DNA of 32,922 nt from Verrucomicrobiota bacterium (GTDB taxonomy: Bacteria > Verrucomicrobiota > Verrucomicrobiia > Chthoniobacterales > UBA10450), in contig VBQC01000177.1 in the NCBI GenBank assembly GCA_005887825.1, forward strand, positions 1-32,922, read 5' to 3'. The translations under genes and the position numbers were made by a program. Below are positions 12,475-17,466 of this stretch, piece by piece; position 1 is the first letter of the stretch; every line of letters begins with the position of its first letter. The notes below the pieces were generated by a model. That model made no database searches. It was not told the DNA's origin and saw only the letters and a program-made list of their open reading frames with translations.

Positions 12475-13623
12475 TCAATGGGCCGTCTGGATCTTTTCGT
12501 CATTCAGATCAAGTTCAAGCCCAAGCGTGGATCGCGGGTCGCGCGCGAACTTGAAACCAGCCAGCGGCGCGACAAGATCAATACCTCTCTCCAACGCAAG
12601 AATTTGAAAGCTTCTGCCGAGCATTTCCGGATGCAGCAGGGTTTGCAGCGCGCGCTTGATTCTCTCATCGACGTCACCAACGCAAACACGACGGTCCGGC
12701 AGCTGCCGGACCGTCGAGTTTGACGAGCGGGCTTGCAGCATCTCTGGCCATTCAGAGATGATTCCGGTCAGGAAATGATGTTGATCGGTGAATCCCGCGA
12801 TGCGCAGACCGTTTTTCTGTGCGCGTTCGGCGATGCTCGTCCAATTCACATGCGTGGTGATGTCCGCGTGGCCAATCTGCTCAAAAGATGAATCAAGAAA
12901 GCGATGTTTCGCGCGAACCTGCACCGTCTGGCGGAATTCATCGCGCGGAGATCCGTAATCGACCGCCATGACGTAACCACGCTGCAACTTTGCCGCGACG
13001 TTTTGGACCCAATCGAGTGCAGCCTGATTGATCGCAGCGCTGTTATCAACCGATCGCTCGACAAAAACAAATCTGTCTCGATCAAAATCAACCAGTTTTT
13101 CCCATCCGGGGCCGATCAGGCGCACCGGCATCGCGTCGAGTAATTCGTTGGAAAAATGAATGCCGACGAACGGCTCAATCGAATCGCGCCATTCCACTTT
13201 GTCGCGAAATGATTGGAGCGTTTGCAATTGTCGATCTTGCAGGATTGGAAACGGCTCCACGATTCGGTATCGCAAAACCGCAAAAAGGTCCGGGTAGCAG
13301 TTACGCGCCGACTCCAGCACGTCACGCGCAAAGTCACCATGATGCGCGCCTTGCTCGACAATGATGAAGTTGTCGGTTTCGCCAAGCCGTTCCCACACTT
13401 CGGCGAACTGCGCAGCCAACAGTTGTCCAAAAAGCGGACCGACGCTCACGTTCGTGAAGTAATCGCCGTGCCGCCCAATCGCGCACCGGCCAGAAGAATA
13501 ATATCCGTGCTCAGGATGATAGAGCGCCTGTTCCATGAACCATGAAAAGGAGACCGGGCCGCGGTTTTCAATTTCCGCGCGGATAAGGTCGATTAAGGCC
13601 GGGTTGCCAGGTTCAAGAGTCAA
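12475..13623 (-). CDS. MidA/DUF185-family SAM-dependent methyltransferase
   Basis: VSFSWFMEQALYHPEHGYYSSG, GRHGDYFTNVSVGPLFGQLLA, ELLDAMPV, MAVDYGSPRDEF, LLHPEMLGRSFQILAL. Confidence 0.87.
   Translation of the reverse strand: MTLEPGNPALIDLIRAEIENRGPVSFSWFMEQALYHPEHGYYSSGRCAIGRHGDYFTNVSVGPLFGQLLAAQFAEVWERLGETDNFIIVEQGAHHGDFARDVLESARNCYPDLFAVLRYRIVEPFPILQDRQLQTLQSFRDKVEWRDSIEPFVGIHFSNELLDAMPVRLIGPGWEKLVDFDRDRFVFVERSVDNSAAINQAALDWVQNVAAKLQRGYVMAVDYGSPRDEFRQTVQVRAKHRFLDSSFEQIGHADITTHVNWTSIAERAQKNGLRIAGFTDQHHFLTGIISEWPEMLQARSSNSTVRQLPDRRVCVGDVDERIKRALQTLLHPEMLGRSFQILALERGIDLVAPLAGFKFARDPRSTLGLELDLNDEKIQTAH
12689..12716. repeat. Perfect 28-bp palindrome inside a coding region
   Basis: cgacggtccggcag|ctgccggaccgtcg, 14+14 perfectly complementary, no spacer. 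Confidence 0.95.
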
Positions 13624-13707: not shown

Positions 13708-16389
13708 TTGAGCGTTTGCCCCCTAGGTTGCGCGAGTTACTCGCTCCACGGCTTGAGAACATCCACGACATACCTGAAGCCTCCGCCGGGCTACCGCTTT
13801 CGTCCGCCCTGGTATTCGCGGCCGCAATTTTACATTCCCGTGGGCATCATTGCGGTGCTCGCTATCGTCTTTGCGGTTTACACTTCAGTTCTCGCCACCG
13901 ACTTGGGAGCTCATGCCAAGACTTTCGATCTGAACAAGCTTGAACAAATGGAATCGGCGAGCGTGATTCTCGATCGAAAAGGCAGAATCTTCGGCCAAAT
14001 CTACGTAGAGAACCGCGAGACAGTGCCGTACGATCAGTTACCACGCGATCTCATCAACGCGGTTGTCGCAGTCGAGGACGCAAAATTTTATCAGCATCAC
14101 GGATACGATTTGCTGGGGATTGTCCGTGCAGCGTTGAAAAACTTGACCGCCGGCCACGTGCGCCAGGGCGCGAGCACCATTACGCAGCAACTGGCGCGCA
14201 ACAGTTTTTCACTCAAGGAAAAGACATTTCGCCGCAAGCTGCTCGAAGTTTTTCTGGCGCGCCGAATCGAGGATCATTTCGGCAAACAAAAAATCATGGA
14301 GCTCTACCTGAACCGGATTTATTTCGGGGGCGGCCTGTACGGAGCGGAAGCGGCGGCGCGGGGCTACTTCGGCAAATCTGCGCGTGAAATGTCGCTGGCG
14401 GAATGCGCCACACTAGCCGGCCTGATTAAGAGCCCAAATAAATTATCGCCATGGAGCGATGGCGCCGCTTCACACGAAGCGCGCAATTACGCTCTCGATC
14501 GGATGCGCGATCTCGACTTTATCAGTCGCGAACAATCCGCCAAGGCGCGAACGGAAGAAATCGTTATCGGGAGCCGGCAAAACGCTCAAGGACAAACCTA
14601 CGCGGTCGATTACATCCGCCAGCAAGTGATCGCTGCAGTCGGATGGGACCGCGCGATGAACGAAGGTTTTCGCATTCGTACCACCATCGATGTCGATCTC
14701 CAGAAGGTTGCCGAGGATTCCATTCGCGCAAACCTCGACCGGGTTGAAAAGCATCCCGATTACAATCACCACACTTACGCCGAGTACGCGGCCACTTTCC
14801 GCAAAGCAAAAGCAAACGGCACCATGACCAACCAACCGGCCCCTGAATATCTTCAAGGCGCGGTAATCGGCCTGGATAACGAGACGGGCGATATCATGGT
14901 CCTCGTGGGCGGACGTGATTTTGAGCACAACCAGTATGACCGTGCGCTGCAAGCAAGGCGGCCAGCCGGAACGGCGATGCTGCCATTCGTTTATGCGGCT
15001 GCCTTCGAGAAAGGCATGTTCCCGGGATCACTCGTGGAAGATTCACCGCTCGATAATCGCGCGGTCATGATTGGCGGCACTACCGGCATTCTTGGCGAAT
15101 GGGGACCGGAGAGCGCTGAAAACCGCTATGAAGGCGCAATGACTGCGAGGCAGGCGCTGGCCAAATCAAAGGACGGCGCAGCCGTCCGTATCGGTATGAA
15201 CGCAGGCGTCGATTCGGTCTTGCAGCTCTGTTCTACCGCCGGCATTCGTTCGCCGCTGCGCCCTTATCCCGCCACGTTTCTGGGCAGCAGCGAGGTCACG
15301 CTCGCCGAGCTCGCGCTGGCTTACACAATATTTCCAAACGGCGGCTGGCGGGCAAGCACACCACACATTTTGGAGCGGATCGAAGAAAAGGACGGAACGC
15401 TGGTGTGGGACGCCAAGCGCAGTCGCGCCCGGCAAACAGTCATCAAACCTGAGACCGCTTACGAAATGCATTCCTGTTTGGTCGATGCGCTGCAATCGGG
15501 GACGGGAAAAACCGCATACACGCAATTTGGTCTGGAAAAGGTCCCGGCGGCGGGCAAAACCGGCACCGCCTACGATTTCACCGATGCTCTTTTTGCCGGA
15601 TACGATTCCAATTTTACCTGCGCAGTTTGGACGGGGTTCGACAAACCGCAAAAGATTTATCGCGGCGCGTTTGGGCGCGAGCTCGCGTTGCCGGTTTGGG
15701 TAGACATCATGAACGCGGCGGTCCGGCATTATGCGCCGCGCGAAATTAAGCAGCCGCCAAATCTAAAGGAGGTCGAGATTTGTTGGAAGTCCGGTCTGGT
15801 CGCCACTGATAAGTGTTATGACGCCGTGAAAACGGCGACCGGCGATACGGTTCAACGACGCACGACTTACATGGAGGTCGCGACGCCGGCGCAGGTGCCC
15901 ATGGAACCTTGTAATGTTCACGGCGAACCACGCACCCTGCTTGTCCGCGATCTTCCCTCCCGCGATTTGCCGCGCGCAGAGCTGGCTGTCGATCTTAGCG
16001 AAGTCACACCTGTGCCCGTGAGAAACCCAACGTTACTGGCGGACAAAGACCCTTACAATTCTCTCAAGCCAACCTCGAAACCAGAGCCAACGCCGGAGCC
16101 GGAAAAAGAAATGGCAGAAAATCAAAAGATCGAGAACGGACCGAGCGAGAGCCAGATGACATCTACGAAGCCCGCCAGTATTAGCGACCCGGGAGGGACG
16201 CCAATCAATCAAGCGGCCGAATCCGCTGTCCCAATCAGGAAAGCGATCCCGGTCGAGCCGCAGCATCCGGCAGCGGCCAGACCAGTCGAGATTCGGCGCG
16301 CGCTGCCAGTTAAGCCGCTCGATCAAGAAAAAGAGGACGGGACGCTTTTGAAATCAGTGACGCCGCCTCCGAGCGATCTGGACGAATAA
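13708..16389 (+). CDS. Class A penicillin-binding protein (GT51 plus degenerate transpeptidase domain)
   Basis: GT51: VEDAKFYQHHGYDLLGIVRAALKNL, GASTITQQLARN, ELYLNRIYFGGGLYGAEAAARGYFGK; transpeptidase KTGT at 15556-15567. Start uncertain (TTG at 13708 or 13753; no ATG in this part). Confidence 0.9.
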   Translation: MSVCPLGCASYSLHGLRTSTTYLKPPPGYRFRPPWYSRPQFYIPVGIIAVLAIVFAVYTSVLATDLGAHAKTFDLNKLEQMESASVILDRKGRIFGQIYVENRETVPYDQLPRDLINAVVAVEDAKFYQHHGYDLLGIVRAALKNLTAGHVRQGASTITQQLARNSFSLKEKTFRRKLLEVFLARRIEDHFGKQKIMELYLNRIYFGGGLYGAEAAARGYFGKSAREMSLAECATLAGLIKSPNKLSPWSDGAASHEARNYALDRMRDLDFISREQSAKARTEEIVIGSRQNAQGQTYAVDYIRQQVIAAVGWDRAMNEGFRIRTTIDVDLQKVAEDSIRANLDRVEKHPDYNHHTYAEYAATFRKAKANGTMTNQPAPEYLQGAVIGLDNETGDIMVLVGGRDFEHNQYDRALQARRPAGTAMLPFVYAAAFEKGMFPGSLVEDSPLDNRAVMIGGTTGILGEWGPESAENRYEGAMTARQALAKSKDGAAVRIGMNAGVDSVLQLCSTAGIRSPLRPYPATFLGSSEVTLAELALAYTIFPNGGWRASTPHILERIEEKDGTLVWDAKRSRARQTVIKPETAYEMHSCLVDALQSGTGKTAYTQFGLEKVPAAGKTGTAYDFTDALFAGYDSNFTCAVWTGFDKPQKIYRGAFGRELALPVWVDIMNAAVRHYAPREIKQPPNLKEVEICWKSGLVATDKCYDAVKTATGDTVQRRTTYMEVATPAQVPMEPCNVHGEPRTLLVRDLPSRDLPRAELAVDLSEVTPVPVRNPTLLADKDPYNSLKPTSKPEPTPEPEKEMAENQKIENGPSESQMTSTKPASISDPGGTPINQAAESAVPIRKAIPVEPQHPAAARPVEIRRALPVKPLDQEKEDGTLLKSVTPPPSDLDE

Positions 16390-16425: not shown

Positions 16426-17466
16426 ATGACATCACAAAGCACAGATGATTTCCGATTGACTGTTCTCAATCCGGGAGGTCGCGATCCGGAACAGCACTTT
16501 GGCGACGCGCCCGGTCCGGGCGGGGGAGGACATCCGCCCATCAATTTTCACGGCTACGCAGCGTGCACGCGGGGCGTTTTCCATTACGATACTCGGCGCG
16601 CGGTTGCGGAGGAAACGCCGGTTCTTCTTCTCTTGCGGGGCGAATTTCGCGCCTCGGAGCGGGCACTAGGCGAACTCCGGAAGCAAGAACGGACCGTCGC
16701 TGTTTCCCTGAAGGAGACCGGCCTGCATCAAATCGCCCAACAGTTATGCGATCACGGAAAGTTATCACGCTTCATCGCCATTTTGGCGCAAGCCGATGGA
16801 TGCATCGCCACTACACCGGAAGCTGCGGAAATCTACCAGCGCGTCCGCTGCAAACACGATCCCGTCACGGTCGCTTTTATTCCCACGCCTTATCCGGTCG
16901 AAGATCGAGAATGGAACTTTTCTGTGCCGCCTGACGAACAAGCAGGGATTTTTGTCGGCACACGCGAATTTGATGTGCCCTCGCGCAATCATTTCGCGGC
17001 TTTGCTGGTCGCACGACAGCTTTGTGAAGCGACCGGTGAACCAGTCACCGTCGTCAATCTGGATGGATACAAAGCGCGACGATTGCTCTGGGAGCTAAAA
17101 TTTCCCGAAGAAAAATTCCGGATCATTGAGGAAGAAAAATCGTATCCGGATTATCTGCGTATCGTAGCCCGGCACAAACTTGTTTTGCAACTGGACCGCA
17201 GCCACGTGCCCGGCCAGGTCGCAGGCGACACGCTTCTCTGCCAGACTGTTTGCGTTGGTGGCGATGGCGCGATTGAACGAATCGCATTCCCAAAAACTTG
17301 CGGCGAAGGAAAGACCATCGACCAAATCGCTTCCATCGCGCTCGAGTTATTGAAAAATGGCGATGCGCGCGCCGCGATTGTCGTTGAATCGCAACAACGC
17401 GCGCAGGAGCGGCTTTCTTTTCAGGCGGTCCGCTCGCAGTTGGCGACCTTTTTCGCGCGATTGTAA
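16426..17466 (+). CDS. Conserved hypothetical, glycosyltransferase-like
   Basis: Codon-rich ORF following the PBP; IFVGTREFDVPSRNHFAALLVARQL and TLLCQTVCVGGDGAIERIAFP suggest a GT-B-like protein; family not recognised with certainty. Confidence 0.6.
   Translation: MTSQSTDDFRLTVLNPGGRDPEQHFGDAPGPGGGGHPPINFHGYAACTRGVFHYDTRRAVAEETPVLLLLRGEFRASERALGELRKQERTVAVSLKETGLHQIAQQLCDHGKLSRFIAILAQADGCIATTPEAAEIYQRVRCKHDPVTVAFIPTPYPVEDREWNFSVPPDEQAGIFVGTREFDVPSRNHFAALLVARQLCEATGEPVTVVNLDGYKARRLLWELKFPEEKFRIIEEEKSYPDYLRIVARHKLVLQLDRSHVPGQVAGDTLLCQTVCVGGDGAIERIAFPKTCGEGKTIDQIASIALELLKNGDARAAIVVESQQRAQERLSFQAVRSQLATFFARL

Follow-up and report, generated by a model that had tools for sequence, protein, structure and literature searches.

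Class A penicillin-binding proteins (PBPs) are regarded as bifunctional, and are counted as such in genome surveys. Given the coupling between their glycosyltransferase (GT) and transpeptidase (TP) activities, even a catalytically dead TP domain could regulate the GT domain. The KTGT motif of active PBPs binds the substrate carboxylate. Monofunctional GT51 enzymes (MtgA/MGT) have the same predicted activity as the protein described here, polymerisation only, but they lack a TP domain altogether, whereas this protein keeps the TP fold under strong purifying selection. The logic that we propose is also that of the SEDS–class B pairs (RodA–PBP2 and FtsW–FtsI), a polymerase with a separate class B transpeptidase, except that here the polymerase is a GT51 enzyme, and the class B partner is anchorless or fused to the polymerase. 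As for PBPs with dispensable catalysis, the presence of PBP 2B in Bacillus subtilis reportedly counts for more than its own transpeptidase activity. PBP 2B is a class B protein with an intact active site, while the loss considered here is natural, concerns a class A PBP, and is fixed over a clade. Functional redundancy among the division PBPs of B. subtilis is the subject of a separate paper (PMC5656894). In the open-access literature, as far as its texts were accessible, we found no report of a natural class A PBP with a pseudo-transpeptidase domain or of a class A–class B fusion.

The window, a stretch of 32,922 nucleotides from a Verrucomicrobiota genome, encodes a class A PBP that was proposed in a first-pass annotation to combine an intact GT51 domain with an inactivated transpeptidase site (Table 1). 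Like the PBP1A family (TIGR02074; structures of PBP1a from A. baumannii and P. aeruginosa), it has the common domain order, a transmembrane anchor, the GT51 motifs, and the TP fold, but it lacks the TP Ser and Lys (the Ser is missing across the class-level clade) and has gained a clade-specific motif. Its score places it only narrowly within the PBP1A family of NCBIfam (524 bits vs. the cutoff of 509), and the Pfam matches cover both domains (PF00912, 2.5e-62; PF00905, residues 384–633, 7.7e-17). The hydrophobic anchor lies at approximately residues 39–66. TTG is the earliest in-frame start, and the real start may lie further in, as alignments with homologs begin only at about residues 14–17.

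Table 1. Features of the pseudo-transpeptidase PBP, its neighbors, and the standalone class B PBP of the same genome.
Feature	Coordinates	Strand	Basis or remark
PF02636 methyltransferase, divergent from the PBP	12475..13623	-	Pfam, synteny
Class A PBP, 893 aa, GT51 intact, pseudo-transpeptidase domain	13708..16389	+	Pfam, NCBIfam, phmmer
GT51 glycosyltransferase domain, residues 92-266	13981..14505	+	Pfam
Transpeptidase fold, catalytic Ser and Lys absent, residues 384-640	14857..15627	+	Pfam, Foldseek, dN/dS
T-A-M-L where S-x-x-K belongs, residues 422-425	14971..14982	+	phmmer vs. PBP1A structures
Signature segment DSPLDNRAVMIGGTTGILGEWGPE, residues 445-468, clade-specific	15040..15111	+	ortholog alignment, AlphaFold
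SKD where SxN belongs, residues 487-489	15166..15174	+	ortholog alignment
KTGT retained, residues 617-620	15556..15567	+	ortholog alignment
346-aa protein, family not known	16426..17466	+	36 bases downstream of the PBP
Standalone class B PBP (C330 protein, L164)	G000:C330:22533-24494		outside the window

According to phmmer, RRPAGTAMLPFVY of the window PBP pairs with the GSxxKP segment of the solved PBP1A structures. The catalytic Ser is replaced by T422 (14971–14973) and the Lys by L425 (14980–14982), exactly where the first-pass annotation had placed these substitutions, and its readings of SKD in the SxN position and of the retained KTGT are also correct; hence, the window copy has lost the Ser, Lys, and Asn of the TP motifs. 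The closest named records come from Candidatus Udaeobacter and other Chthoniobacterales/Spartobacteria genomes (Verrucomicrobiota). The orthologs are 109 distinct sequences from families f1–f13 of the window's order and from f18 and f15 of the class. Family f15 includes the gut bacterium Akkermansia muciniphila (G169), identified by an M60 protein that matches PDB:7SCI over 486 residues without a difference; this entry is named in a paper on an A. muciniphila metalloprotease (PMC9118916).

The position of the catalytic Ser is occupied by Thr in all 109 orthologs. The Lys position is far more variable, with Leu in 58 sequences, Thr in 27, Lys in 16, and others in eight (L/T/K/A/S/V/I/Q/F/H are met), and the SxN position reads SKN in 62 sequences, SKI in 17, GKN in 11, and SKD in nine, the rest having other variants. 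KTG is mostly retained, with KPG, KGG, and KNG in some sequences. The question whether TAML and SKD are conserved in the clade is thus answered positively for Thr, but not for Leu, which is found in about half of the orthologs, nor for SKD, which was rejected as a clade trait, since SKN, GKN, and SKI are all commoner. As Thr is shared by all orthologs from independent genomes, a sequencing error or frameshift at the motif is ruled out. A shifted active site is not apparent either, as no other conserved Ser-x-x-Lys was found within the TP region of the orthologs. In two trees, built quickly and with SH-aLRT as the sole branch support, the Thr-type PBPs form one clade (SH-aLRT 96 and 100), separate from the SxxK paralogs of the same genomes. 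The catalytic Ser was lost once in this clade, the loss then becoming fixed, and the Lys position is unconstrained.

The invariance of Thr, which does not drift, and the frequent retention of KTG could also mean that Thr serves as the nucleophile of a low-activity transpeptidase or carboxypeptidase, at least in the 16 members that retain Lys, many of which also have SKN. However, Lys is lost in 93 out of 109 sequences, many sequences have in addition no Ser or no Asn in SxN, the KTG motif itself varies in some, and the window copy has none of the Ser, Lys, and Asn residues, and hence we consider such an activity very unlikely.

The gene neighborhood gives additional support to the orthology. 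The head-to-head pair of the PBP and the PF02636 methyltransferase genes recurs in families f1, f4, f18, and a part of f15; we take this as synteny support for the orthology of the PBPs, with no functional claim. The downstream 346-aa gene follows the PBP gene in nearly all f1 loci with sufficient flanks, and it was not seen beside this type of PBP at loci outside f1; its product has no Pfam match above the cutoff and no PDB match. Being confined to one family, it was rejected as a conserved partner of the PBP.

The GT51 half, in turn, is strictly conserved. Residues E123, D124, F127, H130, K177, E180, R186, K193, Y200, and N202 are invariant in 15 out of 15 orthologs, in agreement with the earlier description of the GT51 motifs as complete, and the catalytic residues vary neither in the Thr-type clade nor in the active paralog. 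In close relatives, the median dN/dS, a rough estimate given the mean dS of about one, is 0.059 for the GT domain, 0.059 for the TP domain, and 0.174 for the C-terminal tail, the value for the TP domain ruling out a pseudogene. The ratio of TP to GT divergence in 15 genomes that contain both proteins is 1.33 for the pseudo-transpeptidase PBP and 1.28 for the active paralog. Moreover, the motif DNRxVMxGGxxGILGEWGxE (residues 449–468), situated between the first and second TP motif positions, is kept in the pseudo-transpeptidase clade and is absent from the active paralogs. The AlphaFold model of the whole protein (pLDDT 81, pTM 0.68), where residues 450–471 have pLDDT below 50, yields PBP1a structures as top Foldseek matches (E 2.8e-37), while the TP domain modeled by itself reaches pLDDT of only 56. 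The gene is not a decaying one, since purifying selection on the TP domain matches that on the GT domain and a clade-specific motif has been gained; judging by these patterns, the domain is a conserved pseudo-transpeptidase, repurposed rather than decaying.

Taken together, GT51 invariance, the fixed loss of Ser, the free Lys site, purifying selection, and the presence of further, motif-intact PBPs in the genome fit the earlier suggestion of a polymerase-only PBP whose TP domain has a structural or regulatory role. The absence of acylation by beta-lactams, likewise suggested earlier, is a fair prediction from the loss of the nucleophile. A more specific role for the domain would be that of a peptide sensor, which binds stem peptides non-covalently, gauges free donor strands, and tunes the GT51 half. 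The retained fold, the mostly retained KTGT, and the additional conserved segment between the first two motifs are compatible with this role, but with the variants seen at SxN and KTG a conserved site for peptides becomes less probable, and we find the sensor function highly improbable.

If the window PBP does not crosslink, other enzymes should do so, and the genome indeed encodes candidates with intact motifs, as the first-pass annotation anticipated. Two further GT51 proteins are present, PBP1A-like (GSAFKP/SRN/KTGT), which is the additional active-type class A PBP whose presence had been suggested for checking, and PBP1C-like (GSTLKP/SLN/KTGT), along with three class B PBPs with intact SxxK and KTGT. 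There are only two SEDS proteins, and therefore one class B PBP has no obvious SEDS partner. The 3 Mb genome also encodes at least ten YkuD (L,D-transpeptidase-like) domains. These enzymes, canonical class B PBPs included, could form a common pool that crosslinks the product of a polymerase whose TP domain is purely structural or allosteric, in which case no dedicated partner would exist. This explanation has to be weighed against the distribution and architecture of class B PBPs across the class.

A class-wide search for GT51 yielded fused proteins of 1261–1413 aa in families f70, f72, f76, f78, f85, and f87. They combine, in this order, a GT51 domain whose residues are intact, a degenerate class A TP domain (GALLQP-like, ANxx-like, and GMTG-like at the three motif positions), and a class B part, where SxxK, SxN, and K(T/S)GT are intact in ten out of ten proteins; Pfam and NCBIfam identify the PBP_dimer plus class B TP architecture in both fused proteins scanned. 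No strongly hydrophobic segment was found between the class A and class B modules of the fused proteins. When eight fused class B domains were compared by Blast with the three class B PBPs of the window's genome, the first match was the standalone L164 protein in eight cases out of eight. In a likewise quickly built tree, L164-type standalone PBPs group with the class B domains of the fused proteins in one clade (SH-aLRT 99), and canonical PBP2, including the C90 protein of the window's genome, falls outside it. The N-terminus of the L164-type proteins is a signal-peptide-like segment followed by a linker, without an anchor, in both the window's genome and A. muciniphila, as assessed by eye and by averaged hydropathy.

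In the window's genome, the gene for the pseudo-transpeptidase PBP and that of the L164 type do not neighbor each other. In another genome (G121), 42 bases separate the end of a class B gene of the fused/L164 clade from the downstream open frame of a different degenerate class A PBP (GTAFLP/GKT/GWGGT). In one genome of family f19 (G133), a standalone class B PBP of the secreted type, L276, is nested within the fused clade, and the sole class A PBP is of the active type; this is possibly a case of fission of a fused protein with subsequent loss of the class A half. The grouping of the Thr-type PBPs with the fused class A parts in one clade was neither supported nor rejected (p-AU 0.30), and as the fused class A part does not lie clearly within the Thr clade, the dead TP domains of the two forms may have originated independently.

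The co-occurrence of the two proteins points in the same direction as the fusions. In a sample of 141 Verrucomicrobiae genomes with completeness of 90% or more, the set of 47 genomes that have the Thr-type class A PBP coincides, with no mismatches, with the set that have an L164-type class B PBP; the L164 type was called in these 47 by match scores and start position, and a subset was placed in the tree. The 47 genomes belong to a few lineages, and hence the co-occurrence amounts to a few independent events. The fusion is present in nine other genomes, and two 0.9-Mb genomes (G043 and G052) have neither a GT51 protein nor an L164-type protein. The explanation with no dedicated partner would require both the class A–class B fusion and the exact co-occurrence with the standalone ortholog to be coincidental, and thus we see it as an unlikely, if serious, alternative.

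Two other observations concern GT51 proteins of the class as a whole. A GT51 match is absent in 74 of the 141 sampled genomes, including some of 4–7 Mb, and hence the loss of class A PBPs there is not restricted to endosymbionts. Family f15 also has a third GT51 protein of 559–602 aa (L191:137-1942, L189:2497-4200, and L197), whose TP region is degraded further, with GAAFEP or GDLFTP at the first motif, no SxN or KTG, and a weak or absent Pfam TP match.

The fusions and the co-occurrence suggest that the secreted L164-type class B PBP is the crosslinker. We regard as rather probable a two-component synthase: GT51 would make the glycan, the pseudo-transpeptidase domain would serve for docking or regulation, and crosslinks would be introduced by the secreted class B PBP. 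The GT51 half, the only enzymatic one, would polymerise lipid II into glycan. The TP domain would keep its fold but would be unable to make the acyl-enzyme, and therefore, under this proposal, would neither crosslink nor covalently bind beta-lactams; its role, with the signature segment as a part of its own, would rather be that of a conserved module for docking or regulation. The anchorless secreted class B PBP of the window's genome would then most likely crosslink the glycan product. Most simply, the dead TP domain may have been retained because it couples GT51 to the class B PBP, covalently in some orders and non-covalently elsewhere.

That the protein is active as a polymerase, that it is physically coupled to the class B PBP, and that the signature segment has a part in this are inferences, whereas the core claim of the first-pass annotation, an intact GT51 domain beside an inactivated transpeptidase site, stands whatever the fate of the coupling model. 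The chances seem evenly balanced that this is a third synthase architecture, in addition to bifunctional class A PBPs and SEDS–class B pairs, namely, GT51 with a dead-TP dock for a soluble, secreted class B PBP, encoded by separate genes in Chthoniobacterales and the relatives of Akkermansia and as one 1.3-kaa polypeptide in other orders.

A clade-wide natural pseudo-transpeptidase is a case where evolution, and not mutation, has parted the polymerase from the transpeptidase. Since the fusions name a specific partner, the coupling between the polymerase and the crosslinker is open to direct tests, for which A. muciniphila, being culturable, is also suited. The pseudo-transpeptidase also affects the interpretation of genome surveys: in one of them (PMC8406291), Akkermansia is classed as having classic peptidoglycan because a class A PBP is retained, and one class A PBP of the Akkermansia group should not be presumed to be a crosslinker or a beta-lactam target.
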